A stretch of 64,000 nt of DNA from Clavaria fumosa. Taxonomy: Eukaryota > Basidiomycota > Agaricomycetes > Agaricales > Clavariaceae. The stretch lies in assembly GCA_951802425.1 (NCBI GenBank), contig OX637795.1, positions 2,274,501 through 2,338,500 on the forward strand, in the 5' to 3' direction. Of the stretch, positions 12,263 through 38,196 are shown piece after piece. Each line of letters opens with the position of its first letter. The first letter of the stretch is position 1. Under the pieces are notes generated by a model, which was given only the letters and a program-made list of their open reading frames with translations, searched no databases and was not told where the DNA came from. Position numbers and translations under genes: made by a program.

Positions 12263-12529
12263 ACCCCCTTCAGCACACCCACCCCCTATCCAAAAGGCCT
12301 AGCCAATTTTGACTGATGCCCTTTTTATGGGCCCAGCCGATCGTCAGCCGAGATATAGCTTTATAGGCTTGGCCAATCAACTTGATATACCAAAATCCTG
12401 CCAGGCATACAGGGATCCCATGGTAATGATGATACCCTTTCAAAAGGGCTGGCCGACACCCATTTTAGGAACCAGTGTAAAGGGTCTGAAGCACCCTATT
12501 CAAACATTTCTCTCACTTACATGACAAAT

Positions 12530-13550
12530 TAGATCAAAAAGCTGGGGATAAAGCATATGCACAAGATTAGGAAGCAAAGATCAGATGTGCTATTTGATAG
12601 ACATGTAAATTACAAGGTCATCTGCATCATTTGAGACTCCTTATCATCTGAGACTCCTCCATGACAACTTAACACAGTTGGGTGAGATGAAAACAAATAT
12701 GCCTTCCAATAGGTCTTCAAAGGGTAGAAGCAAATGTACCAATTGAATATGCAATGGAGCCATTATAAACTAGAGTGAAATGTGGTTGTCAACTGAGTCA
12801 GGATATTCTTTGGAAAAGGATGGGCCTTAATATCCTTTCTGAAGAGTATTCAAATCCACTTTGAATACGTGTTCTAAAGGAGAATGTATTGTTATTGTTC
12901 AAATATTCTTGCAATGTAGAAGTTGTGCATGTGAGTCTGTTATCACACCTTGTGATTATATCATTCTGTGGCTGTGCCCGGGATCCCGGGTGTGACAGTC
13001 ACACTGTGACCAACTCTGCATAAGAGTATTCAAATCCACTTTGAATATGTGTTCTAAAGAAGAGGAGAATGTATTAGAATTGTTCAGGATGAGCCTTTGT
13101 ACATAAAAATGATCCATTGTGGTCTAGAATTAAATTGAGGAAGTGATGCAAGGCAGTATATAATCTGATATTCCTTATAAAGAGACAAACCATTATAAAA
13201 GGACCCACATATGTGGTTCAATGGGGCACAATCCACCTTCAACAATCCAGTGGGAATAATGAAGGAGGATATTATTATCAGATATTGCTTATAAAGGTAT
13301 GAATCTTCTGAACAACATGATGCATCTAATAACAAGACTCAAATATGCTTTCTGATAGGCACAGGTTCTTCAATGATCTGATGCAAAGCTGACTGATTCA
13401 GGAAGTGGATCATTATCTGAAATTCCTTAGAAAGGGCCAAACTATAGGCACCACAAAAGGACAGATTGCAAAGAATTATTAGGACCTAGTGAGACATCAT
13501 GCAGATTGATATGCACTACAAATGACTGTCACCAGTGTCAAGGATGATTT
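12530..13550. other. Non-coding outer part of the left inverted repeat
   Basis: No gene is visible. Short related words recur, such as ATTCAAATCCACTTTGAATA with GTGTTCTAAAG (12850 and 13026), and GATATTCCTTATAAAG / GATATTGCTTATAAAG. At 12977-12990 a perfect 14-bp palindrome CCCGGGATCCCGGG is followed by GTGTGACAGTCACAC. Such subterminal motifs are candidates for transposase binding. Confidence 0.55.
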
Positions 13551-15657
13551 TCAGTGCTTCACCCTTGGTCGCAGTACCCGCTTCTTGGCATCCATGGAAG
13601 CCCTCTCTCTAGCCCTGGTCCTATATTGCTTAGACCTCTCCTCCTCCTCTTCATCATGGTATACCCTTTTCCTCTTGGGCAGGCTGGGCCCTGCCTCCTT
13701 GTGGATCTGAACTGCCATATGAGCAACAAGGCCATGAACATCTCTATGCACACCCACATCATCCCACATCCCTTGTTCTCCTGTCCAAAATTCCATTATC
13801 TGTATTGTATTTATGCTGGACTGGAAAATTCTCACCTGGATGTTGCCTGTCATGGTCACCTTCTAACCCATTCCCCTCAATACCATCACCCCTTCGCATA
13901 TCCACCTGCTTGCTCAGACAGGATTCTTCTGCATCACTATCAGAGGGAACAGAAGCCTCAACCCTATCATCATTATCCCCATCATAGATGCACCCCGAAT
14001 CACTGTCTGACTCATCTGAGCCAATGTCCTCACTATGTGCATTTCAAATGTGCATTGATGATGATGATGATGATGATAATGATGATATGAGAACACTCAC
14101 TCAGTACTGATATGGACAGGCTGGACCTCTCGTTCTTTCCCCTTCTTGAGGGAGAGCCTCTTCACCTCTTTGTCAGATGACAATGATGGCTCTTGTTCAG
14201 GTTGCTGGTGATAGTTGACTAGATGCCTTGATGGCTTCCCTCTCTGGTGCTGTGGGAGAACATATTGAAACTGTAATATTTTCTGGCCCAAAGTCTGTCG
14301 GTGATGCAGGAAATCACAGAGCCTTCTGACATCGACATATTGCATTTTTGAAGGCTCGCGAATTTGCATTCCCTCTGGAAGGTATTCATGAGGAATAAAC
14401 TTGTGTGGAGCATCAGCTATCAGTTGCCAAGGGACAGCAACCTTCTTGTTTTTTGTTGTATTGCCTACATGTTGGAAGTAACTTGTCAGACTTGGACTAT
14501 TGAGCAAGACAGACTCACAATAAGTGATAGTAAAAAATGACCACAAAATTTCTTTGAGTTGTGCGAGTGGTAGGTTGAGTTCCAAAGGAAGAATGGGCCA
14601 TCCCTCATGATCTGTTAGCAAATCCCATGGCACACTAATATCTCTTCCTTTCCTTGATAGCATCTCCTCTTCATCAACAAAAGGCTTCCTTTGTAACTCA
14701 TCTGAAATCCTGTCAGTACTTCCCCAACCTTGGCTTCACATCATTTTCTCACCATTCCATGTCTCAGCCAAATATTTATCCCACTCCTCCCACACCTCAC
14801 AACCAACTTTGTGAAATTGTACCTTGAACCCACTAGTCACAGGTCCAGGGGTCTGAATCCTGGAGCATGTATACAGAGAATTAATCTGATGGACCAGTGG
14901 GCATGCAATTGAGACTCACTTTGTCTTCTTTATATTCCCTTTCTCATCTTGCCAGCCAGTCAACATAAATAATTCAACACCCATCTGCTCCTTTGCAAAA
15001 CGGGCAAACTTCAGGGCCTCATGCATAAATTTGCAAGAAGCCAATCTCCAAGCAACATTTCAGCCATTCTACTGGTTGAGAAAGGTAAATTAAAATACTC
15101 ACTCTCTCTGCACAGGAACTGGGACAGGCTCCCTATTCCATTTCTCCACCAACCCCATGTATTTCTGATGCTCCTCTTGTGTTAGCTCTTGACAAATCTC
15201 AGTCCTAGCATGACGATATGAGCTGAGGAACTGGACTGATCCCCTCTCAGCATTTGACAACTCCTGGGCCCTGGCATTGATAATCCCCTTCTTGCACTGC
15301 TCCACAACATGCTGGAGGGTCCACCTCTGTCGTTTGCTGAACTGAAGGCCTTGGTTGCCATCATCTTCTGAACCAGAAGACTCCTCCCCTCCACTGACAG
15401 CCCTGCGGTTATTGTGGAGCCAATTGCGAATTTCTATGAACAGACAAACATCAAATCAACTCAGGAGACACATAAAATGCATAGGTTACGGTGCTAAGAT
15501 CCTCTGGGACACATTTGTTGTCCTGCTCAGCTGAATCCTTGATTTTCGCTTTGATTTGCTTGACAATTTTGAGGCAGTCTTTTGAGTTTGCCTGTCTGTA
15601 GGCTACAAGACTTTCTGTGAGTATTTTGGTATACTCTGGGGTCATCCACCGTGTCAT
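13551..15657 (-). CDS. Arm-borne gene, left copy (homeodomain-like N-terminus, acidic and basic tail)
   Basis: Multi-exon gene on the - strand, mirror of 34818-36925. The start is probably the ATG of MTRWMTPEYTK. After a short intron the second exon begins KIRNWLHNNRRAVSG, resembling the recognition helix of a homeodomain (K-I-x-x-W-x-x-N-x-R). Later exons encode RWTLQHVVEQCKKGIINARAQEL, a segment with KFMHEALKFARFAKEQMGVELFMLTGWQDEKG, then a 160-residue exon (ISVPWDLLTDHEGWPILPLELNLPLAQLKEIL...), an Asp/Ser-rich stretch and a basic C-terminus with DEEEEERSKQYRTRARERA. A DNA-binding role is inferred only from the motif. One junction near 15030 does not splice cleanly, so the copy may be damaged. 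Confidence 0.6.
14056..14092. repeat. GAT microsatellite in the left arm
   Basis: An imperfect (GAT)n run, about ten units with one AAT, lies in an intron of the arm-borne gene. The right arm has the same run at about 36384-36420 as ATC units. Confidence 0.85.
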
Positions 15658-15918
15658 TTTCTTTGCTAGCCTAACTGATAAAGCAGTGGCATTGTTGGGA
15701 AACAAGAAGTGGTGTGTCACGTGAGAAAATAACTTGGCTCATGTGAGTCACTTGTCACACATTTTGACTGTGACTTGCTGAGGCTGTGCCTGGGACCCCG
15801 GGTGTGACAGTCACACTGTGACCGTAACTCTCCATAACAATATGCAAAATGTCCTTTGAATATGTGAGCCTTGTGTATTTTTTTAATGTACGAAATTCCA
15901 CAGCAGTCACATCTTACA

Positions 15919-16735
15919 GAGTGATGACAAAGGTTCGGCTAACGGTCTATCTGAAAGAGGACTAGTACGTTTAGTTTAAACTCCTATTGGTTACGTGCTT
16001 GCCAGCGCAGCGGCCTCAGGGCCCTGAGGATTTTTTGTACCGCCGTATCTGGAGCTTCACGTCTTGGTTATGTGCTTGCCAGCGCAGCGGCCTCAGGGCC
16101 CTGAGGATTTTTCGTACCGCCATATCTGGAGCTTCACATCTCTCGCGTGAACTCTAGGTATGTGCTATCCTTGTGATCTTTATTACACTACTGAATACAC
16201 TACGTCTCTTGCGTGAACTCCAGTCCTCTTGATCCGAAGCCTTCTCTGCATTATATATATACCATATTGCTTCTGAAGTGAAGCAATGGCACATTTTCAT
16301 GCAAAATAACATAGCTTTGCTCATGTGAATTGTGTGTTGGGAGATGTGACTGTGACTTGTTGTGGCTATGCCCAGGATTACGGGTGTGACTCACACTGTG
16401 ACCATAGCTTGGCATCAGAATATCCAAATGCTCTTTGAATATGTGTGTTCTGGGTAAGAGGAGAATGTATTGCTATTATTGCAGAAACTAGGAAAAGCTG
16501 ACTAACGTCAGCAGAACCTTTGCTTGAATATCTTTGCATAAATTTGTGATACAACTATGGCTCACAATTGTGGTACCAGACAATGTCAGATAGTCATGCT
16601 GGTCCACAGGGGTTGTGAACAACACTGTATTTTCCAAAAGATTACCCACTCATAAAGTTAGTGTGGCTGTGCTGATGCTGTGATAACAGATGTCACATAG
16701 TGTGACTGTCGCATACACTTTTGTCAATATCCACC
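15919..16735. other. Region between left arm and protease gene, with a possible copia LTR relic
   Basis: No gene is visible. 15989-16142 is a 77-bp unit in two tandem copies. 16136-16230 repeats TCTCTCGCGTGAACTC and CTCTTGCGTGAACTCCAG, close to TCTCTCTTACCGCGTGAACTCCAG in the copia LTRs at 50486 and 63367, so a degraded copia LTR is likely. ATTATATATATACC at 16250 could be a TATA box. About 16345-16410 is a further copy of the GGGTGTGACTCACACTGTGACC motif found in the arms. Confidence 0.5.
15989..16142. repeat. 77-bp tandem duplication with 16-bp palindromes
   Basis: Two near-identical units start at 15989 and 16066. Each contains the perfect palindrome CCTCAGGGCCCTGAGG (16014-16029 and 16091-16106). 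The two units differ at about three positions, two of them CpG/TpG or CpG/CpA differences. Confidence 0.85.
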
Positions 16736-18487
16736 ATGTCTGCCCCAATCATCCTTCCTTGTGCTGCTGTCCGTGTGGGTGGAAACACCAGCAACCCCAA
16801 ATCCTTGGTTGCCTCGTTTCAAGTCCAGGGTGCCATGTAAGTACTTTTGTTCTTGTCCATTCAATCTCCTCACTGAGTTGTGAAAGGGCCGCAATGACTT
16901 TGACAGGCATGGGGTTTCCCCAAGTACAAGTTCACTTAGAAAGGGATTCATCAGCTTGTAAAGTGAGTCTCCCCAAACTGCAGGATAGGCGTTACTAATG
17001 ACATTAGATGAGTCACCCTAATAAGAAAGGGCGTCATGTGGTCATGGTCCTCCATGTCAATCTGGTTCGACCTTTGAAACCCCAATTAGCACAGTTCTGG
17101 GGCAAGACTAAAGGTATGTACTTTTGAAAGCTTGCTCCATGTCTGTCTGAGAGGATCTAGGACGGGTACTGTTTCCAAAACTATTTCTCCTTTTTGACCA
17201 AGAATCAAGTCTCTGGAGTCAACAAACATACGAAGCGTTTGTTCAATCTGTCAAGCCTAACTTTCTGGGAGACACATGGCAATATCTTAGGTATGTGGCT
17301 TGTTTTGAAAGCTAAATTTCAACATTAATGATTGGCAATATCATAAGACCTGAGGAATCCGAAGCTGCATGGGTATCTGGTGGGACAACATCAGGGTAGA
17401 TCAATAACCTCATGTAATCAATATATTTGACATATTTTTCTCATTCTAGTGTTGGGAGCACACATATGCTTCTAGGTCCAGTTCAATTGAAAGATATTGA
17501 ACTTGACCAACTCAAGGCTGGTCAATGGATAGGAGGAGATATTGTCAACTTTGCACTTCAGTACGTCAACCAATGTTCAATTGTTAACAATGCTCAAGGT
17601 GGACAGAGAGACATACAAAGCATTGGAAACAGGGGCATCTGGAATATGGCTTGCAAATACATATTTCCTTCCAGTACTGAGGTAATTTCACCCCTTAATG
17701 ATGTGGGTGAAAGCTGATCATTTATTAGAAGAAAGGATGGCACCAGAGATATTATCGCATGGCTTCCAGAATCTGCACACAAATGCAGATACTGGATTAT
17801 TCCTGGGTTCAGTGAGGAACTGTACATGGCTGATATCTTGTTGGAATTTATGGGGATGCTATACCTATTACAGGAAGCATTGGTTTACCATAATTGTGGC
17901 AAACCCAGGCCATTGCTTTCTAGTCGATCAGCCAGATGGTAACTGGGGATGGTGAGTGTACCATTTCTTGCAATATTTTTGGTACTAACATCTTTACAGT
18001 ACCATTGTCATACTTGACAGCTTTTTTCGTGACAGGGTGCATTCCAAAGACGCAAAGGCAATCCAAGACCTCTTCCGAGAGCTTGGGCATCAACAGGGCC
18101 TAAAGTACACCAAGGACCCAAAGGTTATCCAACCAAAGGTTTGTGGCAAATTGTGCAAAAAAGGGTGCTTCATATATTTTCATATGTTCTTGCTTAGGTT
18201 CCAAAACAGAAAAACGGAGATGATTGTGGCATATATGTGATCCATTTTGCAAGGCTGTGGTTGCATGAAGGTGACAGATTAATGGATGTGGTGCTGGTAA
18301 TTGGATATTTCTTTTCTTCTTCTAATGTCATTTCAACATCCCTTAGAACCCCTTGATGTCTCAACAAGACATTGAACAAGCATGGAAGTGCTGGAGGATT
18401 GGTGGGCTTCGGACAAGGCTACAAGAAGAGATCCTCACTGTTGCAGAGAAGAGTTGGTTTGAGCATGAAAAACAAAGGATAGTCTGA
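16736..18487 (+). CDS. Ulp1/SENP-type cysteine protease (peptidase family C48)
   Basis: A multi-exon gene with clean GT-AG introns. Exon 1 starts at an ATG in good context (CCACCATGTC) and ends at a GTAAGT donor at 16837. The exon from about 17450 gives the substrate-binding start of the fold (LDQLKAGQWIGGDIVNFALQYVN). The catalytic set is complete: His in KHWFTIIV (CAT 17878-17880), Asp in VILDSFF (GAC 18016-18018), then Gln and Cys in PKQKNGDDCGIYV (TGT 18225-18227). The last exon ends EKSWFEHEKQRIV. Family members cut ubiquitin-like modifiers such as SUMO from proteins; transposon-borne versions are common in eukaryotic DNA transposons. It lies directly upstream of and parallel to the KDZ transposase. 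No stop was found in the catalytic exons; exon borders at 16960-17440 are uncertain. Confidence 0.82.
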
Positions 18488-18583
18488 TTGCCATTTACAG
18501 GCCTTTCCTCTTGTAATTCTACTGCCACTGGAATTTTATTGTATCTTGTATTTGTATTACTCTAACACTTTGCAACATAGAAG

Positions 18584-18677: not shown

Positions 18678-18698
18678 TTGTCCACTGCAACCTCCGCC

Positions 18699-21600
18699 AT
18701 GCCAATCACTAAACGAAAAGAACATGCCCAGGAGGTTGAATTTGTTTCAATTTACAATAAACGACTGCGGAAATCCTTTTTGAAGTCTCGAAATGTCTAC
18801 AAACAACCTGCTCAACCATACAACGTTCTACATAGCAAGCTTTGGTCTGGGACCTGCTCCAATGATTCCCTACTCCCCCAAACACCCCATAGCGAGGCCA
18901 AACAGACTCTGCCCTTTACATTTAATGCAGATGGTGACCCTGAGTGCATACTGGATTCTGATGCCCAACGGATTTCACATAAGAAAAAGCAAGGAAAGGT
19001 GAGGACTCCAAGTTATTCTCTGTATGCTGAAGTATCTGAAAATGTACACATTCAGACTCAGAATGAATTCCTTGAGGATTGGCTTCCTTTAAGAACAGCT
19101 TACCTGAGGGAAATCTTGGAATTAGAAGCTCCACCCCCTTCCAAAATTTGTCAGGTCTGCAATCAGAACAACTTCAAGTTTCGATGCCATGATTGTTTCT
19201 ATCGGCCTGCAACTTGCTCCTCATGCTGCGCCAAATCTCACATCAATATCCCATTCCATTCCATTGACATTTGGAATGGAGTTTGTTTCCTGCCATCTGA
19301 TCTCCTACATGTTGGACTGGCGATTCACTTAGGGCATCAAGGCTCACCATGTCCAGAATTCAAAGAGGAAGGGTACAGGGAGAAGGATCAATGGGAGCAA
19401 GATACCAGAAATGAACCTAATTTGGATAGGCCAGGTGCAAGTCTGCTTCTAGTTGTACACTCAAATGGAGTGTGCCGACGGAGCATCTATTACTGCCAAT
19501 GCTCAAATGCTCCTTCCCACCATATACAGCTGCTTCAACACTGTCTGTTTCCTGCCAGCTATACGAAACCTCAAACAGTGTTCACATTTGAAGTCCTTGG
19601 TCACTTCCATATTGAGGCTATGGAGTGTAAAACCTCAGCAGGCGCCTTTTACTCCAAACTAAAGAGATTTACCTCTAATGCTTTCCCAGACACTGTACCA
19701 GTTAGTATCCTCCTCTCCTTTTCCCTCCATTTGTATTGACAAGCTGCTGGCATTAGGATCGATACCGTGAACTAATGAGAGTATCTCGTCAATGGCAAGA
19801 CTTGACAAATAGAAAATGATTTGGTTTTGGGCACAACTTGGATAGGAAAACAGGAAATGGGGACCTAGCACTGTTTTGTCCTGCTTGCCCTCAACCTGGC
19901 ATTAATCTTCCTAACAACTGGCAAAGTCAACCAGATCAGTAAGTCTTGTTTTCATTGAATGCATGTGAAACCTGATAAAGAAATGCCAGATGGCTTTTCC
20001 GCAGATCCCTGGTTGTTGATGGAAATTTCTCAGCAGAACACTTGAAAATGCGAAGAGCAGAGAAAGATGTTAGGTTAGCAAATGGAGAGGCATATATTGT
20101 AGAGGAAGTGAATTATCAACATCACCTCTCTGAGGGCTTAGAGATTCAAGATGTAGGTGTCTAACTTGGACTGGTCACCTGAGATTCACTCCTACAACAG
20201 AAATCAAAATGCTCAAATCACAGGGCTATAAGCCAGTCAAATGCTCACTCAAGTCACCTGGAAGCCATGGGAATAGGGGCATGTGCCTGCTCACGGCATG
20301 GGTGTTTCGTGCCACATTCTGTGGTTGATTTCCAGAAGGGCAAGCGGTGAGCTGAAAATGTCTGTATATTTGAATTTGGTTGCAAATACTTGTTGCTTTT
20401 TCTTCCAGTCACATCAACATTGACTATGCAATTTGCCAAGCTATCAAATATAGGACAGAAGGGATGACAGAGACTTTAGTCATCTATGATATCTGTTGTC
20501 AGTGGATTTGCAATTTCGACAAGAGGGTCCAGGGGAGCCAGTATCTGTCTGTGCACCCTTCAACAACAACAATCATACCTGCAGTGGGTAAATTTCACTT
20601 GGGGGCACACATTCGTTCCTGTTTCCCACTGTTCTCCTTGAACTTTGTTCATGGTGCTGGCCAACAAGATGGAGAGATTTTGGAGACTCTGTGGTCAAAC
20701 CTGAACAAGGTCTCCAGCAGCATATGGGCCATGAGCAAGGCACATCGGCACGAAATATTAGACGACTACATGCGAGATTCAAACTGGAAGAAAACAGTGG
20801 GTATTGGTGGGTATCAAAACTTTCTAAGCGAATTTGGGATAACTGAATATGCAATCTAGTGAAGGCCCTCCTGGCGAAGTACAATGCTGCAACAGAAGGT
20901 CTTCAACAAACCAAGATTGCATTCAATGATTTGAATGAAGGGATTGGATTAGAAGCAAGAGAAGAATGGATGAATTTAGAGCAGATTGCTCTGCAAAATC
21001 GAGGGGAAGCCCTCAAAATATACGATATACAACTGGAAAAGAGTGAGTTGATATTCCTCACTTCATCACTAGAGACAGAAATCTGAAAATTTTAATATGA
21101 AGCACCAACTCTTGCAGATATCAGGCTAACTCTCTCAGCTAGGGAAAAAGAAACTGGATTACCTTCAGGGATTACATCATTCCTGACTCAAGGCATGGAT
21201 CTGGAACATATTCAGTAAGTGACATCCAAGATGCTAAGCCTACACACATGCCAATGAGCCTCCAGATGTTCAATTGACCTAACCCGGAAGAGGAGACTCA
21301 CAGCAGCTCAGAAGCAAAGCATTATTGATAAACAGAATGCACTTCAATCCAAAATTGAAAATTTCAACCAACAAGTCTATACTGTTCTGGGAGATTTCGA
21401 GTGGGATGACCAACACCAGGAGACCATGCCAGAAGACACTGGACCTAGAGAAGAAACACAGGATGATCCTCAAGATGGTGACGTGGAAGACCTGGACATG
21501 GACGAGCAGAATTTCATACAGAACAGGCTTTGGATGCCTTCTATGTTTGGCCACGACTTCTGCTTGAAAAATGGGTGGGAAAAATTTGTGGATCAAGAAA

Positions 21601-22302
21601 TACAGCTGCGGGTGGTACAAGCAGAGGAGTCACTTGAAGGGCTCAGACTGGCAATCGGACACAAGTCGTTGCTTTACAAGATACAAATTCAAAAATCCAA
21701 AACCCAGGCAAGCAAGACCAGGAGCCGCTCAGAACTCCTCCAAGTGAATGACAAGATCAAGGAGTATACTGGGAGGTACAAGTGTGCTAGGTCTGCCTTG
21801 ATAAGCCTGGGAGCACCTGCACATGTACTTGAGAAGTTTCAAGTTCTCCAAGACACAGACTTGAAAGTTAACACAGATGTGGCAGAGGAAAACCGGATTG
21901 GGCAGCGAAATGATGCATTACCCTGGTTCTGGAGGATTGGGACTGGGGGGAATGCCGGGAACCCTTTGATGAATGAAAGTGAGTTCTTCGATATGTTAGC
22001 TTCCTCATATGTTTCTATGCTGACTGAAATAAGTATTGAGGGTGAACTGGCTGAGAGCAAAGGCTCGATATGACAGGTGGGAAGAAGAGATGTTATTGGT
22101 GAGACACGAAATGACATGGGCATTGGCATGGTATTCACACCAACAAAGGGAATGGGAGAGGAGGAGAGTCTGGGCAGAAACACAGTGCTTGCATGGTCAC
22201 AGAAGCTATGCTGAGAAGCAGGCTATGGTATGGAAGTGGATGAAGGAGGCTGCATCTACTGCCTGGGGTGATATTTTGAGTCTACCACAAGTCAAATCTT
22301 AG
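18699..22302 (+). pseudogene. KDZ transposase with CxC2 cysteine cluster, one in-frame stop
   Basis: The start ATG at 18699 is in CCGCCATGCC context. Exon 1 (18699-19700) holds the CxC2 cluster associated with KDZ transposases: CQVCNQNNFKFRCHDCFYRPATCSSCCAKSH, HSIDIWNGVCF, LAIHLGHQGSPCP. Exon 2 (19757-19938) encodes DRYRELMRVSRQWQDL and FCPACPQPGINLP. Further exons give LVVDGNFSAEHLKMR, GIGACACSRHGCFVPHSVVDFQKGKR, VIYDICCQW, VGKFHLGAHI and GAGQQDGEILETLWSNLN, the KDZ catalytic core with its acidic residues. The C-terminus reads VNWLRAKARYDRWEEEMLLVRHEM. In exon 2 a TGA (19817-19819) stands where Trp is expected before FGFGH. Everything else reads as intact, so inactivation looks recent. Product: the recombinase that moves the element. 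Confidence 0.88.
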
Positions 22303-22413: not shown

Positions 22414-23581
22414 TTAGGTCAACAATTGCATGTATGTATTTTGAGTTGGGTAAGTTGGTCGTGGTATCTGTAGACGGTCATGAACAGAATCTTTCATGAA
22501 ATGAGCAATGCACAATCGTTCGCCACCCTCCCAATCCATCACTTCATGCAGAAAAACTTTACCCGCAAATACAAGGACAGTTCCAGGAAAATTGACCACC
22601 AAGTTCCTGGAGTGTCATGTGTGCCTGCTTGTGAGTTCCAGCACTAACCAAAAGATTGTAGTGAGCCAGGCAGCCTCCCTTGTCGCGATGTGCAGGAGTC
22701 TTCCTGTTCACGATGACTTCCATTGCCGTAAAGATTGAGGGCCAAAGCTGCACATTCTTGTATGTTTTTGCCATTGCCACCCCAGATTGCACTTGGTCAA
22801 TGGCTGAGCTCCCAAAGTCATATTGTTCTGGTGCGACCAAGGCCATAATTGAATTGCACAGCTTCTCTGCATGTGCAATTCCTCGAATGAAGGAGGAACC
22901 ATATGCAGTCTGCAAGCTGGTCGAAGCATGCAGTTTATCACTGAGCTGTTGACATTGAGACAGTAAAACAAGGTAGTTATGTGACAGCATTACCTGTTGC
23001 TGGCCTTGCATAAACCAGCCAGGAGAGAAGGACTTGATTCTGGCACCAAAATGACCTCCGCCTTCAGGTTCGACAAATCCCGTAGTACGCCCAGCATTAC
23101 TTGGCAAGTCTCTGTCCAGATGCTTGCTAATGTGCTCACACCCTCTGTTGTACTGCTCCTGTAAATTGGTTAGAAAATATGGTTCAAAATTGATTGCCTT
23201 ATCTCACCACTCTAGCACTAGAAAGAATTCCAGGCAGAGCCCACAGCAAGATATGACCGTGCTTATCAATTATTGTGCAGGGTTCCTCTTGAACACCGAG
23301 GTCTTGAGGCTGCTTGAAATGCTTGCTGAATTTCACCAAGGCTGCATCGAAATTATTGCTGCGTTTGGCTATGAGATTGATATGTTTCACACTGTCTGCA
23401 AACCGATCTATGTCCCATTCCGTTTGAACTGAATGGTCAAAGTGTTCAGCTGATTGTTGCAAGTCATTTAAGCTAACGCACTTGGGTTGAAGAGGGCATA
23501 GGCCACAGTTAGAACTACATGTTGTAGTTCTTCTTGAGTCACAGGTTGGTCGTCAGCATTACTCTTGTTGCTGGAATCCAT
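22414..23581 (-). pseudogene. Fungal TET/JBP-family 2-oxoglutarate/Fe(II) dioxygenase, one-base frameshift
   Basis: The gene converges on the transposase, 111 bp apart. Exon 1 starts MDSSNKSNADDQPV; the next gives FADSVKHINLIAKRSNNFDAALVKF and IIDKHGHILLWALPGIL, a signature of basidiomycete TET/JBP proteins. After two more introns come VEPEGGGHFGARIKSFSPGWF and VIVNRKTPAHRDKGGCLAHYNLLVSAGTH, with the HxD iron ligands at 22682-22690, then GTVLVFAGKVFLHEV and ERLCIAHFMKDSVHDRL. Family members oxidise 5-methylcytosine in DNA to hydroxymethyl, formyl and carboxyl forms. Between LQELGGQF and PGTV the frame slips by one base in a run of four T (22588-22591 on +). Unless an unusual splice covers it, this copy would lose the second part of the catalytic fold. 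Confidence 0.87.
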
Positions 23582-24927: not shown

Positions 24928-24978
24928 TTAGGTCAGATATCCATGTTCCTTCATATGTGAAGGAACAGATGCTTTACA

Positions 24979-26556: not shown

Positions 26557-27309
26557 TGTGAGGGGGATAAGCACTAAGAGAGAGTGAGGGTCATGCATAT
26601 ATAATGTTTTCCAGATCACCTTGACTACAACAATACAAGACTACATCTCTTGAATAGGGGAGGTTCAGTTGACAGTGGTACCACACAACGATTAGACAGA
26701 GGGGAGAACAAGGTGTGAAGCGACAAGAAGGAAGTTTCTATAACTACCAGGGTAGGCAAGTACAATGATTGGACAAAGGGGGAACAAGACATGTTCAGAC
26801 CAGGAAGGACTACTGTATGTGTAATTACAAAGGCACAACAAGAATATATCCAAGGCTGGGACAAAGCATCAAGAGAGCGTGATGAGTGTTGAGAAGGGCT
26901 AATGCTCAAATGTTCTCTCGTTTACTTGTGTCTATAATAGTTCTCATTCACTTGTTTATAGTTGTCCCTTTGTGTCTACCTGCTCTCCTCTCCTTGTATT
27001 TACCTACTGGTGCCGTCGTGCCCTCTTGGCATTCGTGCTATGGCCCTGTAGCAGATACTTGCAGAGACAAGACCTTGTGCATGCCTGCCACCTGCCGCCT
27101 GCTCTTCTGCCACTACTTGCTGCCTGCTCCCTGCCATGCTGTCCCGCCCTGCCCTGCTGCCACTGCTGCTCCCTTTCCCCACCCTGACGCTCTGCTTCTG
27201 CCCTGTCCCTGCTGCCATTGCTGCCGCATGCTGCAGCCGCAGCCGCCACCACTGTCATTGCCGCCACATACAAATGGCGTAAACTGATGAAAAACACTCC
27301 CTTCACAGG
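26557..27309. other. AT-rich then C-rich low-complexity spacer
   Basis: No gene supported. 26745-26785 (ACTACCAGGGTAGGCAAGTAC and following ATTGGAC) recurs at 52706-52750. 27060-27260 is rich in CTGCC/TGCCG words and gives long Cys/Leu/Pro frames that look like composition artefacts. Confidence 0.5.
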
Positions 27310-28490
27310 ATGTGTGATGACAGCAGAGGGTGCATGGCTTCGAAGCCACTAGCCCTGCTTAGGATTAGGGTTAGGGCTGCAAAACTGCATAAGTTACAGT
27401 ATGATTTCTTTATATCATCTTCATTTCAAAAAAAGCGCCAAGTACAAATAATTTACAAGTCTAGTGTAAAACGTATCAAAAAGAAAACCATGTCAGGCAT
27501 TTACATCAGAGGATGGGTGGCCAAATCCACCTCTGACTAGCCATTCACATCGCAATATATGCTTCATTGCAAAGAGGGCACTGCAATCTAAGCAGTGCCC
27601 CACTTCGCTGAAGCAAGAGTTCCCCCCAGTCTCAAGTAGATAAAAAAAACGGACTTACTGATTGTTGTCCATAAGAGAGGGAATCTGTAAGAAACTGGGG
27701 TGGGAGGACGCTAACCACATGGCGGCTAGCAGTCCATCCCGGAGCCCATATGGCAACCCCCCATGTATGAGTGGGGTGAGAGGACACTAACCACATGGCA
27801 GCTAGCAGTCCATCTCGGAGCCCATACGGCAACCCCAGGGTATGAGCGCAAGCAAAGCAAAATCACTTACAATGATGAGGGGTTGGGGGAGGTCGTCTGC
27901 ATAATAGACAACACTCACATCCTTGGCCCAATTGGCCACCCCAGGTGGGTATGAATGAGGGTTGGTTGGGGCCGGCTCACATCTAAGCCGCCACCAAACC
28001 AAAAGGCCCATACGGCCACCCTCTTCACATAAAATTCTGAAAAACCACATCAACGAGCACCACATCGACCAATAATGAGTCGCATTGGAATACACACACC
28101 TCTGCAGGTGTCGAGCTAAGAGACACCTGATGACAGACAAGGGCAGCATTCCCTGTGCAGCACTGCAGTTGCCACACAGAGAATGCTGTCCCTGTCCATC
28201 ACAAACCATAAAATAGATGTCCCAGGCGGCGTGGCAGGAGGCTCGGTGGGCGGGTAGACAGGGGAAACAAGGCGGACAAGAGCGACGAGGCGGACAAGAG
28301 CGATGAGGCGGACGAGAGTGACAAGGCGGACGAGAGTGATGAGGCAGATGAGAGCGAGGTGATGGAGCGGAAGACAAAAGATGGTGCGACCATCTTTGTT
28401 TGTTTGTTTTATATATAAGGCGATTCAACGTTTGGCTCTGTTTGTTTATATTGATATGTCACATGATCTCAATAAATTACACGATCACGT
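27310..28490 (-). repeat. Repeat family R, copy A (inside the KDZ element)
   Basis: A diverged copy of the sequence at 52870-54186 (-) and 61615-62983 (+). In family orientation it starts with a TGACATATCAAYATRAACAAACAGAGCC block and a TTATATATA box (28413-28421), runs through a variable GC-rich stretch, a conserved GTGGCAACTGCAGTG-like segment and a segment reading GVANWAKDVSVVYYADDLPQP, and ends near telomere-like TTAGGATTAGGGTTAGGG (27359-27376 on +). GT/AG-like borders suggest an intron-bearing gene, but I recognise no protein family. Confidence 0.6.
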
Positions 28491-29860
28491 GTTGCCTTCT
28501 CACTGCCCTGCTCACTCCTGCTATTCCTCACCCGCTCGCTCCTCGCTCTGCCGCGTCTGACCCGCTTCTCGACCACCCGCTCTCTGCTCTGCTAATTTCA
28601 GTGCACCCAGTGCCCTGCTTCTGCCGCTTAGTGCACCCTGCACCCTGCCTACACCGCTTAGCACACCCTGCACTCCATCCACAACACCTGGCGCACCCCG
28701 CGTTCCATCCACACTGCCTGGGCCCTGCATATGCCATCTGGTGCACCCTGTACTCTGCCTACACCAACCCCGCCTTACTGCCCACTCCCCACCTCATGTC
28801 AGCAATGGTGCGTTGTTATCCCATCCCCCTTCTCCCCTTGCTACTCTTTCAGCCTCACGGCAACCACGGCGGCAGCATCAACGACAATGACAACGATGGT
28901 TGCATGGCCAGCAACCACGGCGGTGATGACAGTGGTGGTGGCGGCAGCTGCATGGCCAGTGACGACGACAACGGGGCAGCAGCAGCGGCCAGCGATGACG
29001 ACAGCGGCGGCGGTGGCGGCACAGCAGCATGCGGCAGAAATGGCCCAAGCCCCCAACAGTGGTCATAGACCAATGTCAGGTACTGGGGCCATTGCGGCAG
29101 CGGCAGCAGCAGCAACAATGATGGCTACGTGGCCAGCGACGACAACGACGACGACAGCAGCGGCCATCAATAGTGACGATCGTGACGGCTGCATGGCCAG
29201 CAATGACGACGGTGGCGGCAGCGCAGCAGCAGCAGCATTGGCACGGCCAGCAAGGACGACGAGGACGGCGGCAGCAGCGGTGGCGTGGCAGCATGCAGTG
29301 ATAATGGCCCAAGCCCCCAACAGTGGTCATAGACCAATGGCAGGGACTGGGGCCATTGGGCAAGGAGCGGCTGGGCGGAGAGTGGCAGTAGGAGCAGCAG
29401 GGCAGGGAATGGCAGCAGGGTGTGGAATGTGGAACCGGGGTGGCAGCAGGGCGGGGAATGGGTGGGCGACGAGCAGGTCACAGAATTGGTTGGCGACAAG
29501 CAGGTCAGGATGGGAAGCGGGTCAGGGATCAGGGACGGTAGCAAGGCATGGAGGAACAGAGGTGGCAGCAGGGAGGAGGGAGCAGGGGCAGCAGCACGGC
29601 GGTGATGCATGACAGATCGAGGGTGGCAGCAGGGCGGGGAGCGCGACCGGGCAGGGAGTGTGGCAGATGAGGAGCATGGCAGGGCGGGGACCATGGCGGG
29701 GCAAGGAGCAGGCCGTTCCCTGCCCCATCAGACACATGATGAAGCAGACCAATCAGGGGTGGCGGCAGGGCAGGGAGTGATGAGATGGGGGTGATGTAAC
29801 GCAACAGGGGATGGCGGTGGTCAGGAGGTGGAGGAAGTCTCCAAGGACAGGAAGGTGTCA
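28491..29860. repeat. GC-rich trinucleotide and minisatellite-like block
   Basis: Long runs of GGC/GCA/ACG-type triplets produce Ala/Thr/Gly-rich frames on every strand. A unit containing ATGGCCCAAGCCCCCAACAG occurs at 29040 and 29304, about 264 bp apart, each preceded by the triplet-rich part, so a 264-bp segment is tandemly duplicated. From 29420 on, GTGGCAGCAGGGCGGGGA-type words repeat. I do not support a protein gene here. Confidence 0.65.
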
Positions 29861-30165
29861 TCCAGTGGGGATGCCTAGTGCTGATATCGCTGAAAATTGT
29901 ACTACAAATGACATTATTTTTCTCATGTTACCTTTCCTTTCATTTCGGAGCCTTCTGTGCTCATACACTTCCATGTCATTAGAGGGAGACCACCTGGATT
30001 GTGCTACATTCAGATTTCAAGCAGAAGCACAAGAGCAGAGGCCCGTGACAGTGTAACAGGTGTGACATGTAACAGTGGGGATCCCGGGCACTGCCACCGT
30101 CAATTTCATCCTTCTTTAGTACTTGAATCCTTGTTACTTGAACTCACTCCCAAACCACACTTTCA
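29861..30165. other. Upstream region of the JmjC gene
   Basis: No gene. 30050-30105 holds a degenerate form of the arm motif (CAGGTGTGACATGTAACAG followed by GGGGATCCCGGGCACTGCC). This is the presumed promoter side of the JmjC gene. Confidence 0.4.
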
Positions 30166-33100
30166 ATGTCTACTTTGATGAACAAATCCTCTTCCTCGAC
30201 AAGCAAAATGTCGACTTCAGCATTGCTCACCATCTTCGATCCCCAAACAGTCCGCACGAGTGCTGTTTTCCAAAACTATCCTTGGTTGACTGACATCATC
30301 ATGAAGCCTGGACTTCTGGAAAGCAACATTGCTACTTGGCTGGGACAGCACCACAACTTAGGAGAGGAGCAAGTTTCCCTCTGCAAGGTTCAATTCAAAC
30401 TTATAAACTTAGGATTATTTGCTTATCAAAGCTAATCGTCTAGTCGATCGCTCAGTCTTTGGATCGTTTTGGACCTGGAAGCACAGCACTGAAGAAGAAA
30501 AGAGCAGTCAACAAATACTTCTGGGCATCATACAGTGACTTGGTTAGCAGAGAGAAATGGGAGAAACATGACACATCAGCTCTCATGAGCACTGCTCATT
30601 TCGTTTTTCGTCATGCCCTTTTGGACCGCTTGGCATTTTCGATTGTTGAGGCTCCTCCATCCCAGTTAACGTCTCGATCTGAATTGCCTAAGATGCCCAA
30701 GAAGTTTAGTGATGTGCATTAAATTTCTTTCCCTTATTCCAAGTTTCTTATCTTTCATAGTATATTGGTACCATTAAGGATTGGCTCAAGCCCATTGAAA
30801 AAGCACAGGGGTCTCAAAGCTTTCAAGCCATGGATCCATTGACGAATTCTGCAGCATATTTTGGCACCTCCCTTCCTGCACACCCTTCGCCAAAGCAGGA
30901 ACAACTGATCAAAGCTGTAAAGTTCCTTGGTGGGGGCCTGGAACGAATGCGAGACATCCAGGTCAAGTCTGTACTTCTAAACTTTGAGATGATGGCATTT
31001 GCCATCACTTGGTTTGGCATGGTTTGTGTCCAGCAATTTTTTTGTTGGGAATTATAACTAACATTCTCTCAGAATAATGCCACAGGTTTTGCTGAGTCGA
31101 CCCAGGACTGGGTCAATATTTTAAATGAGTGAGAGCAACATAGTTTGCCTTATCCACATTTCCAACTAAGTTTTTTCACACAGACAATTAGAAAGCGAGG
31201 GTCTTCCTCTGTCTTCCAGCCTTGTCTCAAGGCTCACAGATCCACGTCTTGGCCCGATGCTCTTCGAGCATGTGCGCAGACTCTTCCACTACTGCCTCTC
31301 TGTCAGTCCCCTTTTTACCCTGACAACAAGGGCATTTGACCAGTTGCAACTGCGACGAAGTTTCTTGGTATCGGTGAGTGCCTCATTTTTATGTCAGATT
31401 GTGTTTACGAAACAGGCAATATAGACTGCAATGTACTTGGGTAACGAAAAGCCTGCGTTTTTGGGATTGACGGAGAAAGCACTGTGGAGAGCCCTGATGC
31501 AAACAAGCATCACCGGCGACTCATCAGCGGCCCTGAATGGCTTCCTTCCAGAGTTTCAAGACCTTCAGGTGCAGTTCAAGGGGCCAGAAATTCAGATGGA
31601 TTGGTATTCTCCATCCCGTATGTTATTTTGATCTTTTCGTCCCTGAATGAAACTGACTGCAAAGAAAGGGCAAGTCCAACGTGTCATCACAGCTCCCGAA
31701 CCATGTTCCATCGAAGAAGAAGCAGAGCCCATCATTGCTCCTGAAGCTGGTCCTCCGGAGCATGTCGAAGACATCATTCCTGCTCTGGAACCAGATCCCC
31801 AGGGCATCACTTCTGCTCATGAAGCAGGTCTGATTGAGCAAACACCAATTTTCCCCATGCTCGAATATGACCAGCAGGAGCTCTCAGACACTCAAGACGC
31901 TGAAGAAGCTGAAGGTGCATTGGAGAAGCCACTGAAACACGAGGTTCATCATCCAACGCGAAGGGCAGCAAAGAGACTCCGGCATGAATCAGACCAGGAG
32001 AATAAGGATGACGAGTTGATCCCCAATGAGGAAGCTGTGACGAGGAAAGGGAAAGGAAAGGCGACACAGGATACACATGTGGGCCAAGGCAAGACAAAGC
32101 CACCTGGACCCATCCACCAGGGTAGAAAGGCTGCCTTGAAGCCAATTCGGAGTATCATTGACCTGATGGTTAAGGTATGACTTATATTGACACCCCAACA
32201 AATGCTGATTGAATTGTTTTATTTAGCACGTAGAGAAAGTGGAGGAGCTCTCCTCTTTACCCCTCCCCAAGGTAAGCAAAATCTCAACTACTGCGTAATA
32301 TTTTAATTCACACAATGCAGATGGAGAATCACTCCATCAAAGTCAAAATGTATGATGCAAATCCTGATACCGAGCCAACTGTCTATGAGCATTTCACGAC
32401 TTCAGATTCAGTACGTTTAACACTTTTTTTCATGGATATCTCTCAAAATAAAGCAGGCATTCTGCGAGTATCCTGTCCTAACAGACATAATAGAAATGGT
32501 CGAAGAGGAATATGTCAATCAGGTCCCTAAGCATCGTCTTCCAACTGCCAGGTCGTGAACATTCCATCCAGATGCGTCTGCGATATTTGTCACAACCTGG
32601 ACTGAGTTCATGAAGATGACTAGTCTGGAAATTCAAGAGGTGTTCCGTCGTCGACATATTCTTATTACGAATACGCCAATTTCAACCCTCAACTTTGATG
32701 AGGAGGGATTATCGACGTTGGCTCCTCTACATCAGGAATGTGTGTTCCAAGGTGAGTCTAAAATATTTTTCAAGTTGATTCATCTAAGTCAGCTTCTATA
32801 GTTGCAGAGATGCGAAAGCACTCTGATGCAAATCTGCTCCGCACTGGGACACTCCACGATTTGCTGGAGTCAACATGTGATGTTACAAAACGACGGATTT
32901 TGAATGGCCTTGACTTCCCGATGAGAAGCCTCAGCCTCCCTCCACCACCTCGATTCAGGCATGTCCCATTTGTTGCTCTGACACATGACAACTGAAACAA
33001 TAACTAAATCAGCGCTTTTGCAACTCATGAGTGGGCATGCCACCAAACCCAAAAGATGGATGGCTTCGCAAACCAACCTGACAAAGACGACCTGATCTGG

Positions 33101-34423
33101 GGCATTGCAGCCACTGGTGGGACCATCAGCATGCCCCATATTGATGATGTTGGCCTTGCAGTTGTTTCGACTGTCATGTCAGGGTCAAAGTGGTGGGTGG
33201 TGATGCGCCGCCGTACAGACGCAGAAGACTACAACTATTGTGGCAATATCTTTTCGACGCATGCCTTCCCCCTCAGTTGGGGTGATTGTAGCACCGGAAA
33301 AGAATTTTTATGTGCGGAGGCTATACACCTGAAGACAGGAGATATTTTGTGAGTTGCAATAATTATCACGTGCAATATTTACTGACAATCCTACAGTTTC
33401 ATGCATCCTGGCACACTCCATTTTGTGCTTGGCCCAGAGCCGACAATTGTTTACGGCCGGCACTTTTATTCCGCATCCACGATAGCTCGCAGCTGTGCTT
33501 CAGCCCTGCATACGTTTGTGCTCAACCCAATAATCACCAATCAAGAGCACCAATCGACAACCACATACTTGTGCAAGATGATGGTGGTCTGGGTTGAGCA
33601 CTATGTCATGGGGAAATCCAAATATGGTAGAATCTCTCCATCATTATGTATGTCATCTGATAATTGTTTTAGCATTTGGTGAGGCACTTGCCCACATCCC
33701 CGATGTCACAACAAGACATGGACTCCTCGATATTATCATGGTGGGGAACATGCTTGAATTTGCGATAGCCCTTGGCCTCAAGTCACATGGGAGGAAACCA
33801 CTGCCTGAAATACTTGAAGAGCAAAACGTTGCGATGTGGCGATACCGCATCTTCCAGAGCTGGTTCATTGAACAATACATTCTTGAGATTGGTGGTCAAG
33901 GGGTGAACCCATCATATCTCTTCTACAAATTGCTCATCCAGTTTGGCGCGGCACTTTGTTCTTACATGAAAAGGTGGGAGAAAAGGCACCACTCACAATC
34001 ACTGCACAGCAGGTGATTGCAGCAGTGCTTGAGCACCTTCGGAAAGACTGGCAAGACCTTCTGGATGCCTTCCAGAAGTTGCTCCATGATGATACCAGTG
34101 CTGGTAATTGGTTCTCCTGGGATGGCCCTGACTTCCACATATTTCCCTGCAACAATACTCAGGTTTGGACGGAGCTGGAAGATTTGCTGGACGATCCAAT
34201 TTATGAACAGGTCTCTGAAGAAGAGCAAGAGGACAGTGATGCAGGAGATGACCGTTCTGAGTTGGGGACAATACGTTCTAAGAGGCCCCTCTCCCCGCAT
34301 GATGGTATGTGTTTCATTATATACTTTCATCTAGACGCAGCAGATTTTCTAATCAATACAACAGATAATTCAGACATGGAATCAATGGCCCGTGTGAGAC
34401 AGAGGCATGGTTTCAATGCCTGA
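30166..34423 (+). CDS. JmjC-domain protein, multi-exon
   Basis: Many short exons with GT-AG borders. N-terminal exons (30166-31620) encode a helical region without a family call (LTIFDPQTVRTSAVFQNYPW; KKKRAVNKYFWASYSDLVSREKW). 31647-32170 is an acidic and basic linker (EEEAEPIIAPEAGPP; RKGKGKATQ). The catalytic part is in 32580-33600: IWGIAATGGTISMPHIDDVGLAVV with the HxD iron ligands (His 33137-33139, Asp 33143-33145), GSKWWVVMRRR, GDIL/FMHPGTLHFVLGPEP and VYGRHFYSAS with the third ligand His (33461-33463). This is the JmjC fold of 2-oxoglutarate/Fe(II) oxygenases, mostly histone demethylases or hydroxylases. A C-terminal region with acidic EEEQEDSDAGDD closes the gene. It may be two genes joined; some joints around 31420 and 32540 are unresolved. 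Confidence 0.68.
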
Positions 34424-34817
34424 CCCTAGCCATTGATTTTGATTAGACATAGAATAGAGCACATGTACTAGGAAGCACCGACCGAGTCATCGGAACCCTT
34501 GCTTGATGTATATATGCATTTACTTTTTTTGAAAGAAACTAACAGTTCGTAATGGCTGTGAGATGTGACTGCTGTGGAATTTCATACATTAAAAAAATAC
34601 ACAAGGCTCACATACTCAAAGGACATTTTGCATATTGTTATGGAGAGTTACGGTCACAGTGTGACTGTCACACCCGGGGTCCCAGGCACAGCCTCAGCAA
34701 GTCACAGTCAAAACGTGTGACAAGTGACTCACGTGAGCCAAGTTATTTTCTCACGCGACACACCACTTCTTGCTTCCCAACAACGCCACTGCTTTATCAG
34801 TTAGGCTAGCAAAGAAA

Positions 34818-36925
34818 ATGACATGGTGGATGACCCCAGAGTATACCAAAATACTCACAGAAAGTCTTGTAGCCTACAGACAGGCAAACTCAAAAGACCG
34901 CCTCAAAATTGTCAAGCAAATCAAAGCAAAAATCAAGGATTCAGCTGAGCAGGACAACAAATGTGTCCCAGAGGATCTTAGCACCGTAACCTATGCATTT
35001 TATGTGTCTCCTGAGTTGATTTGATGTTTGTCTGTTCATAGAAAATTCGCAATTGGCTCCACAATAACCGCAGGGCTGTCAGTGGAGGGGAGGAGTCTTC
35101 TGGTTCAGAAGATGATGGCAACCAAGGCCTTCAGTTCAGCAAACGACAGAGGTGGACCCTCCAGCATGTTGTGGAGCAGTGCAAGAAGGGGATTATCAAT
35201 GCCAGGGCCCAGGAGTTGTCAAATGCTGAGAGGGGATCAGTCCAGTTCCTCAGCTCATATCGTCATGCTAGGACTGAGATTTGTCAAGAGCTAACACAAG
35301 AGGAGCATCAGAAATACATGGGGTTGGTGGAGAAATGGAATAGGGAGCCTGTCCCAGTTCCTGTGCAGAGAGAGTGAGTATTTTAATTTACCTTTCTCAA
35401 CCAGTAGAATGGCTGAAATGTTGCTTGGAGATTGGCTTCTTGCAAATTTATGCATGAGGCCCTGAAGTTTGCCCGTTTTGCAAAGGAGCAGATGGGTGTT
35501 GAATTATTTATGTTGACTGGCTGGCAAGATGAGAAAGGGAATATAAAGAAGACAAAGTGAGTCTCAATTGCATGCCCACTGGTCCATCAGATTAATTCTC
35601 TGTATACATGCTCCAGGATTCAGACCCCTGGACCTGTGACTAGTGGGTTCAAGGTACAATTTCACAAAGTTGGTTGTGAGGTGTGGGAGGAGTGGGATAA
35701 ATATTTGGCTGAGACATGGAATGGTGAGAAAATGATGTGAAGCCAAGGTTGGGGAAGTACTGACAGGATTTCAGATGAGTTACAAAGGAAGCCTTTTGTT
35801 GATGAAGAGGAGATGCTATCAAGGAAAGGAAGAGATATTAGTGTGCCATGGGATTTGCTAACAGATCATGAGGGATGGCCCATTCTTCCTTTGGAACTCA
35901 ACCTACCACTCGCACAACTCAAAGAAATTTTGTGGTCATTTTTTACTATCACTTATTGTGAGTCTGTCTTGCTCAATAGTCCAAGTCTGACAAGTTACTT
36001 CCAACATGTAGGCAATACAACAAAAAACAAGAAGGTTGCTGTCCCTTGGCAACTGATAGCTGATGCTCCACACAAGTTTATTCCTCATGAATACCTTCCA
36101 GAGGGAATGCAAATTCGCGAGCCTTCAAAAATGCAATATGTCGATGTCAGAAGGCTCTGTGATTTCCTGCATCACCGACAGACTTTGGGCCAGAAAATAT
36201 TACAGTTTCAATATGTTCTCCCACAGCACCAGAGAGGGAAGCCATCAAGGCATCTAGTCAACTATCACCAGCAACCTGAACAAGAGCCATCATTGTCATC
36301 TGACAAAGAGGTGAAGAGGCTCTCCCTCAAGAAGGGGAAAGAACGAGAGGTCCAGCCTGTCCATATCAGTACTGAGTGAGTGTTCTCATATCATCATTAT
36401 CATCATCATCATCATCATCAATGCACATTTGAAATGCACATAGTGAGGACATTGGCTCAGATGAGTCAGACAGTGATTCGGGGTGCATCTATGATGGGGA
36501 TAATGATGATAGGGTTGAGGCTTCTGTTCCCTCTGATAGTGATGCAGAAGAATCCTGTCTGAGCAAGCAGGTGGATATGCGAAGGGGTGATGGTATTGAG
36601 GGGAATGGGTTAGAAGGTGACCATGACAGGCAACATCCAGGTGAGAATTTTCCAGTCCAGCATAAATACAATACAGATAATGGAATTTTGGACAGGAGAA
36701 CAAGGGATGTGGGATGATGTGGGTGTGCATAGAGATGTTCATGGCCTTGTTGCTCATATGGCAGTTCAGATCCACAAGGAGGCAGGGCCCAGCCTGCCCA
36801 AGAGGAAAAGGGTATACCATGATGAAGAGGAGGAGGAGAGGTCTAAGCAATATAGGACCAGGGCTAGAGAGAGGGCTTCCATGGATGCCAAGAAGCGGGT
36901 ACTGCGACCAAGGGTGAAGCACTGA
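34818..36925 (+). CDS. Arm-borne gene, right copy (homeodomain-like N-terminus)
   Basis: Second copy of the gene at 13551-15657, reading outward. Exon 1 is 34818-34985 (MTWWMTPEYTKILTESLVAYRQAN), the intron is GTAACC...CATAG, and exon 2 starts at 35042 with KIRNWLHNNRRAVSGGEESS and runs to GTGAGT at about 35375. Exons at 35440-35560, 35620-35730 and 35813-36379 follow. The last exon region (36430-36925) has a Ser/Asp-rich segment and a basic end (KKRVLRPRVKH). Differences from the left copy include Trp for Arg and Arg for Cys in exon 1, both from CpG-type changes. Being in the arms, the gene is always present twice per element. Confidence 0.6.
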
Positions 36926-38196
36926 AAATCATCCTTGACACTGGTGACAGTCATTTGTAGTGCATATCAATCTGCATGATGTCTCACTAGGTCCTAATAA
37001 TTCTTTGCAATCTGTCCTTTTGTGGTGCCTATAGTTTGGCCCTTTCTAAGGAATTTCAGATAATGATCCACTTCCTGAATCAGTCAGCTTTGCATCAGAT
37101 CATTGAAGAACCTGTGCCTATCAGAAAGCATATTTGAGTCTTGTTATTAGATGCATCATGTTGTTCAGAAGATTCATACCTTTATAAGCAATATCTGATA
37201 ATAATATCCTCCTTCATTATTCCCACTGGATTGTTGAAGGTGGATTGTGCCCCATTGAACCACATATGTGGGTCCTTTTATAATGGTTTGTCTCTTTATA
37301 AGGAATATCAGATTATATACTGCCTTGCATCACTTCCTCAATTTAATTCTAGACCACAATGGATCATTTTTATGTACAAAGGCTCATCCTGAACAATTCT
37401 AATACATTCTCCTCTTCTTTAGAACACATATTCAAAGTGGATTTGAATACTCTTATGCAGAGTTGGTCACAGTGTGACTGTCACACCCGGGATCCCGGGC
37501 ACAGCCACAGAATGATATAATCACAAGGTGTGATAACAGACTCACATGCACAACTTCTACATTGCAAGAATATTTGAACAATAACAATACATTCTCCTTT
37601 AGAACACGTATTCAAAGTGGATTTGAATACTCTTCAGAAAGGATATTAAGGCCCATCCTTTTCCAAAGAATATCCTGACTCAGTTGACAACCACATTTCA
37701 CTCTAGTTTATAATGGCTCCATTGCATATTCAATTGGTACATTTGCTTCTACCCTTTGAAGACCTATTGGAAGGCATATTTGTTTTCATCTCACCCAACT
37801 GTGTTAAGTTGTCATGGAGGAGTCTCAGATGATAAGGAGTCTCAAATGATGCAGATGACCTTGTAATTTACATGTCTATCAAATAGCACATCTGATCTTT
37901 GCTTCCTAATCTTGTGCATATGCTTTATCCCCAGCTTTTTGATCTAATTTGTCATGTAAGTGAGAGAAATGTTTGAATAGGGTGCTTCAGACCCTTTACA
38001 CTGGTTCCTAAAATGGGTGTCGGCCAGCCCTTTTGAAAGGGTATCATCATTACCATGGGATCCCTGTATGCCTGGCAGGATTTTGGTATATCAAGTTGAT
38101 CGGCCAAGCCTATAAAGCTATATCTCGGCTGACGATCGGCTGGGCCCATAAAAAGGGCATCAGTCAAAATCGGCTAGGCCTTTTGGATAGGGGGTG
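36926..38196. other. Non-coding outer part of the right inverted repeat
   Basis: Mirror of 12279-13550. Holds the CCCGGGATCCCGGG palindrome at about 37486-37499 and the terminal GGATAGGGGGTG. No gene. Confidence 0.55.

Follow-up and report, generated by a model that had tools for sequence, protein, structure and literature searches.

The window analysed here, a stretch of 64,000 nucleotides (nt) at C2:2274501-2338500 of the Clavaria fumosa genome, contains one element of about 26 kb at positions 12262-38196, and comparison of its flanks fixes both limits exactly. We consider it likely to be a KDZ DNA transposon of Kyakuja-like type, with a gene in each of its 3.6-kb inverted arms and an anti-silencing cargo. 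Insertion involves the unit as a whole and leaves a 7-bp target-site duplication (TSD), and the order of the cargo is kept in 13 of the 13 arm pairs assembled from the genome. Moreover, in related families of this genome similar cargo lies between inverted arms that likewise bear genes. Anti-silencing appears to be the best account of this cargo, whose enzymatic roles are likewise predicted from the sequences of the genes.

The unit and its copies

The original prediction had drawn the element at 12263..38196, between inverted repeats of 3.64 kb. Self-comparison of the window confirmed the repeats, and the right end held, while the left end proved to be off by one base (Table 1). The arms are 100% complementary over 12279-15433 / 35043-38197 and 98% complementary in their inner part (15431-15919 / 34556-35044). 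The termini, CACCCCC..GGGGGTG, are of the CA..TG type. The right arm, despite having 16 nt fewer than the left, still terminates in CACCCCCT; this observation, together with the left end of C10:2740081, suggests that the termini may function with either of two motifs.

Genome searches covered 48.76 Mb in 17 contigs. Used as a DNA query, the left arm gave at least 69 matches (best 40 of 176 candidates scored), from which 13 arm pairs, the window's included, were assembled by hand, with total spans of 25.8 to 44.2 kb; single or incomplete arm matches were left out of this count. Internal probes represented Ulp1 plus KDZ (best 25 of 222 candidates scored), TET plus the H3 mimic (40 of 156) and JmjC (40 of 78). 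When the pairs were read by hand, the Ulp1/KDZ, TET/H3-mimic and JmjC blocks lay inside all 13 of them in constant order. A probe block was split by an insertion in four (C1:4433525, C2:570603, C4:1528139 and C10:2500991), and in the C2:570603 copy the Ulp1/KDZ probe also finds no counterpart for its first 1.8 kb. The outer flanks show an exact 7-bp duplication at nine of the 13 pairs and a 6/7 match at two more, each with one C/T difference. The prediction of a single KDZ unit, spanning the arms and holding TET/JBP, an H3 mimic, JmjC and the arm genes, is therefore borne out by the outer TSDs (9/13) and by the cargo (13/13), and the genome search that it had proposed, for copies with both arms and the same gene order, returned that order in every pair. 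The opposite arrangement, in which KDZ has short ends of its own and the cargo lies outside them, was looked for in the copies and was not found.

Two further matches extend this picture. At C1:1863682, an unpaired arm match, the KDZ and TET blocks adjoin, and no JmjC match was found beside it. A non-autonomous relative of 8.8 kb (L056) has 2.3-kb arms given as 100% complementary, the termini of the window element and a TSD of its own (CCTCCCA), which suggests mobilisation in trans.

Cargo genes and the histone H3 tail mimic

Table 1. Features of the element and its borders, in window coordinates.
Feature	Position	Strand	Remarks
TSD, left	12255..12261		GTGACAC
Inverted arm, left	12262..15919	+	3.66 kb; terminus CACCCCCTTCAG
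Arm gene, left copy	13551..15657	-	7 exons, own gene model; no Pfam family
Ulp1/C48-type SUMO protease gene	17400..18485	+	DDCG motif; exon borders approximate
KDZ transposase with CxC2 cluster	18699..22073	+	9-exon model, open in window copy
TET/JBP dioxygenase, CcTET-like (putative)	22414..23885	-	start tentative; 8-nt deletion and D-to-N in window copy
H3-tail and PHD-like finger gene	24979..26556	-	C-terminal domain conserved, its end C-rich and ribbon-like; TGA in window copy
GC-rich low-complexity stretch	26886..29930		length differs between window and C11 copies
JmjC-type dioxygenase gene (putative)	31647..34420	+	limits of model approximate; frame shifted by 1 nt relative to C11 near 33980
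Inverted arm, right	34556..38196	-	3.64 kb; without outermost 16 nt of left arm
Arm gene, right copy	34818..36925	+	mirror of left model
TSD, right	38197..38203		GTGACAC, perfect 7-bp match to left

Pfam supports the KDZ, Ulp1 and TET/JBP genes that had been predicted. In the window copy the KDZ domain (PF18758, 6.8e-29) and the CxC2 cluster (PF18803, 1.8e-26) both score above the Pfam cut-offs, and PF02902 matches Ulp1 at 6.2e-12 on the stitched exons of the C11 copy. The TET and H3/PHD genes were spliced by hand, a simple gene finder having given no minus-strand model for either. Tet_JBP stands exactly at its cut-off in the window copy (34.9 bits, 1.1e-8) and reaches 3e-18 in the C11 copy, which matches CcTET (7vpn) at 8e-25 and retains the HxD (HRD) and Asp337-equivalent positions. 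The window copy has N where CcTET has Asp337, a residue described as essential for activity on 5-methylcytosine (5mC) (Kojima 2025, PMC12730594; PMC11040006). Genome-wide, eight family copies score 2.3e-17 or better for Tet_JBP (seven 2.3e-17, one 1.5e-17) against 2.5e-7 for the window, so that better preserved TET genes than the window's exist.

The H3-like tail, MARNKQTAQRSTGGHALR, begins at 26556 on the minus strand; the N-terminus of the protein is MARNKQTAQRSTGG, and that of a host H3 exon is MARTKQTARKSTGG. This histone H3 tail mimic, with its N-terminal ARxKQT..STGG, is conserved beyond drift. We compared the C11 copy, of the window family (G1), with a second KDZ family (C5:1745700, G2), a comparison in which synonymous sites are near saturation. 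Over the 18 codons of the tail, a small sample, the proportions of synonymous (pS) and nonsynonymous (pN) differences are 0.64 and 0.10, and the ratio of nonsynonymous to synonymous divergence (dN/dS) is 0.08; the adjoining linker (23 aligned codons) gives a pN of 0.55 and a dN/dS of 0.58. The other segments of the gene with a finite dN/dS stand at 0.08 (C-terminal) and 0.20 (another). Both H3-tailed families retain R2 and K4, except in the decayed copy L050. The K14 position is R in both, the exceptions being the window copy (H) and the G2-type L046 and L050 (C).

A profile built from four relatives of this protein matches PHD fingers in PDB, best of all CHD4 (6ryr, 1.3e-4; 2l5u, 1.6e-4), with further matches to PHF21A (1.2e-3), AIRE (0.018) and ATRX. 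Several of the PHD fingers among these matches read unmodified H3K4. Another match, 2l43 (6.3e-4), is a chain named H3.3-linker-BRD1, whose parts follow the same order as those of the natural H3-tail/PHD protein. The original prediction of an H3-tail mimic with a PHD-like finger was sound in both parts, the tail lying at 26556 and the finger being recovered by profile (CHD4, 1.6e-4).

Relatives of the H3/PHD protein belong to G2 (about 68%), G3 (about 45%) and a fourth group, G4. All three G2 loci whose exon was read as open (L042, L046 and L052) have the tail, and L050 has a decayed tail-like exon; the first exon of L051 (G4) was not identified. The HSH and SCG motifs of the C-terminal half are present in the H3-tailed G1 and G2 and changed in G3 and G4, SCG being missing from L051, L041, L047, L048 and L049. 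A caspase-like reading of this half, with the two motifs as a putative H and C dyad, found no support in Pfam, NCBIfam or PDB and is offered as a remark. In a set of 5.8 billion proteins, no homologue was found at E<=0.001 among the 7995 candidates scored. Within the genome the protein has 25 further loci, one of which, C8:992133, may be a fragment of the window family. KDZ lies within 15 kb at 19 or more of them and TET within 15 kb at 18 or more, against a random-point expectation of about 9% and 2%, and a JmjC match lies within 20 kb at five or more.

The predicted JmjC gene is fairly well supported. Of the four paralogues aligned, all share the HxD, the GxKxW and the second H without variation, and two match PF02373 (best 3.6e-4). 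The dN/dS of the gene is 0.08 against L053; against L055, dS is saturated. JmjC-type relatives at about 72% on the DNA level lie at C1:94546, C5:43141, C12:45884, C11:2699207 and C4:4498845, mostly near contig ends and with KDZ some 40-50 kb off, and possibly represent a subtelomeric giant KDZ family.

Arms, related families and decay

A homeodomain-like gene had been proposed for each arm. The gene in each arm stands; the homeodomain label was rejected, having no Pfam or PDB support. The arm gene is real and conserved, with diverged relatives at 52-74% identity elsewhere in the genome. Among the matches listed (best 95 of 307 candidates scored), relatives were typed at 50 places. Neighbours at these places pair up as minus/plus in 11 cases, at distances of 19-42 kb, and as plus/minus in one, which falls between two elements; no pair has any other orientation. 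Inside the 11 minus/plus pairs, incomplete match lists place KDZ in 11, TET in 10, a PHD-type gene in nine and JmjC in five. Shuffling of strands (5000 times) gave a mean of 3.1 minus/plus pairs and a maximum of 10, against the 11 observed. One related pair, C10:2448685-2489236 (40.6 kb), was read at the sequence level: its ends are CACACCC, its TSD GCTGAGG lies outside the arms, and comparison of 1,580 and 2,322 nt showed its two arms to be 99.8% identical. An arm of this element aligns with the window arm in two parts (555 and 444 nt) at about 67%. From the 11 related inverted pairs at KDZ loci and the near-identity of the C10 arms, gene-bearing inverted arms appear to be an old shared feature, with arms that evolve in concert within each element.

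Left and right arms were compared in 10 of the 13 pairs. They are reciprocal nearest neighbours in seven; the remaining three show a one-way relation and higher divergence, one arm being incomplete in each, so that the compared slice overruns the arm. Between the window arms there are 13 substitutions, all of them transitions, and 11 fall within the inner 490 nt. Since plain cut-and-paste alone does not make arms identical, their identity is probably kept by gene conversion between them, or else by hairpin pairing.

The decay of the copies was followed in the interiors of the window and C11 copies. These differ by 283 substitutions, of which 249 are transitions; 182 of the 249 fall at CpG, which accounts for about a tenth of the CN dinucleotides compared. 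Such an excess of C-to-T changes at CpG is as expected of a methylated target. The observed/expected CpG ratio is 0.17-0.20 in the arms and 0.37-0.55 in the element interior, and PF00145 (C5-methylase-type) matches the host genome at two places. In Laccaria and Coprinopsis, transposons with terminal inverted repeats (TIRs) are described as enriched in 5-hydroxymethylcytosine and 5-formylcytosine (PMC8889193).

Elsewhere in the window, a second long inverted repeat (52925-53817 / 62088-62980; 893 nt, 100%, 8.3 kb apart) has two internal telomere-like TTAGGG repeats directly on its left, at about 52885. Arm-end-like sequence occurs at 51791-52050 and 52551-52685, and the translated GC-rich stretch of the 893-nt repeat is partly common to the non-autonomous L056. 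The open reading frames (ORFs) between the repeats (54651-57858) have no Pfam match above the cut-off. This region probably represents a decayed relative, of the foldback kind, with other sequence inside it. More large palindromes lie at 311-1666, 5441-7884 and 41719-44654, and a retroelement ORF with a Tf2-1-type SH3 and a chromodomain (10953-11807) adjoins the left side of the element.

Known systems and rival explanations

The expansion of KDZ and TET/JBP genes in basidiomycetes, and their association, were reportedly described by Iyer et al. in 2014 (PNAS). Among the open-literature papers listed, that paper not being covered, we saw none describing a KDZ element with JmjC, an H3-tail protein or gene-bearing kilobase arms. 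Kyakuja-type KDZ elements have CA..TG ends and a 7-bp TSD (Kojima 2025, PMC12730594), and the window element resembles the TET+ Kyakuja described there in combining KDZ with TET/JBP, in its 5'-CA..TG-3' ends and 7-bp TSD, and in its CcTET-like (AG-type) dioxygenase. It goes beyond them by a gene in each arm, JmjC, Ulp1, the H3-tail/PHD protein and a length of 26 kb; the main text on TET+ Kyakuja does not mention JmjC, Ulp1 or PHD, and two Laccaria Kyakuja families are described without TIRs, whereas the window element has inverted arms of 3.64 kb (PMC12730594). KDZ1 of Cryptococcus neoformans (PMC12810828) is similar in its KDZ transposase with a CxC-type cluster and in having TIRs, but differs in its size (about 11 kb), its 241-bp TIRs and its 8-bp TSD, and the passages on it do not mention TET or JmjC cargo. 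Membership of Zisupton / Dileera, for which an 8-bp TSD is required, was rejected on the 7 bp found here. Foldback elements likewise have kilobase inverted repeats, and the 2.3-kb arms of L056 are comparable; the window element differs from foldback elements by its own transposase and its cargo. Maverick/Polinton elements have as hallmarks a 6-bp TSD and a protein-primed DNA polymerase; this membership was also rejected on the 7-bp TSD, the polymerase not having been searched for.

Several observations weigh against a Kyakuja-like transposon with anti-silencing cargo. Membership of the transposase in the Kyakuja clade is putative. No TSD was found at two of the 13 pairs, C2:570603-601807 (4/7 match) and C1:4638394-4664360; over the 30 nt shown, one outer flank of the latter repeats the other in inverted orientation, and this element may lie inside a larger palindrome. 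The PHD profile also matches FYVE (1.1e-3), rabphilin and LIM fingers, and the Pfam PHD model scores 0.023, in one of four members. The H3 tail was not found in 4/4 G3 loci read (L041, L047, L048 and L049), so that it is dispensable in some families. The element's own JmjC-type protein has no Pfam match, two of the four paralogues being unmatched in total, and PDB gave no credible JmjC relative, by single sequence or profile. The window copy itself is partly broken: relative to C11, its TET has the 8-nt deletion and a D-to-N change at a catalytic position, its H3-mimic gene has a TGA stop in place of an Arg codon and its JmjC gene a 1-nt frameshift. With three cargo genes disrupted, this copy alone could not run the whole toolkit. 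The CpG ratio is 0.21 over window positions 1-12254, outside the element, and low CpG is thus not unique to the arms. Finally, decay at CpG suggests that whatever escape from methylation the copies had was short-lived; any anti-silencing would then be partial or transient at best.

A host so rich in KDZ (at least 185 matches, best 150 of 248 candidates scored) and Tet_JBP (64 matches, 65 of 65 candidates scored) might be expected to produce composite or nested insertions, in which a larger inverted duplication encloses a small KDZ element that has ends of its own, and TET, H3 and JmjC are bystanders. This explanation is largely refuted, and we give it almost no weight: the TSDs lie outside the arms, the same order recurs in 13/13 pairs and the diverged C10:2448685-2489236 family also has its 7-bp TSD outside the arms. 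The three disrupted genes of the window copy would fit host genes caught by chance, passive passengers without benefit to the element. We find such passengers very improbable, given the dN/dS of 0.08 that both JmjC and the H3 tail show between diverged families, the recurrence of like genes at other KDZ loci, again flanked by inverted arm genes, and the copies with better TET scores elsewhere in the genome.

The element could also be a real transposon whose cargo serves transposition or DNA binding, with for example Ulp1 and PHD regulating the transposase and JmjC acting on a non-histone protein. JmjC-fold enzymes can indeed act on substrates other than histones. We nevertheless judge this unlikely, as the H3-tail copy, which is under purifying selection, and the CcTET-like enzyme point to chromatin and DNA methylation.

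Under the anti-silencing account that we prefer, host methylation would silence copies of the element, whose TET would oxidise 5mC and whose JmjC enzyme would remove a methyl mark from a histone (or other target), while Ulp1 may remove SUMO. The H3-tail/PHD protein could bind its own tail through the PHD pocket, within one molecule or between two, or could divert host readers and writers of the H3 tail by offering them a decoy. More speculative, and in our view rather doubtful, is a whole clade of 26-41-kb KDZ transposons in which long-terminal-repeat-like biology is inverted, with homogenised gene-bearing arms, a multi-enzyme epigenetic escape kit and, as its centrepiece, a natural H3-tail-linker-PHD protein whose tail would dock in its own PHD pocket, or in that of a neighbour, while serving host H3K4/K9 readers and writers as a decoy.

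If the anti-silencing account is true, one mobile element would attack silencing at the levels of DNA, histone marks, SUMO and histone recognition together, and would carry a histone-tail mimic kept by selection. The many near-identical copies in this genome make intact and broken copies comparable, and the model therefore testable. The concerted, gene-bearing inverted arms, for their part, raise the question of how DNA transposons homogenise kilobase ends.

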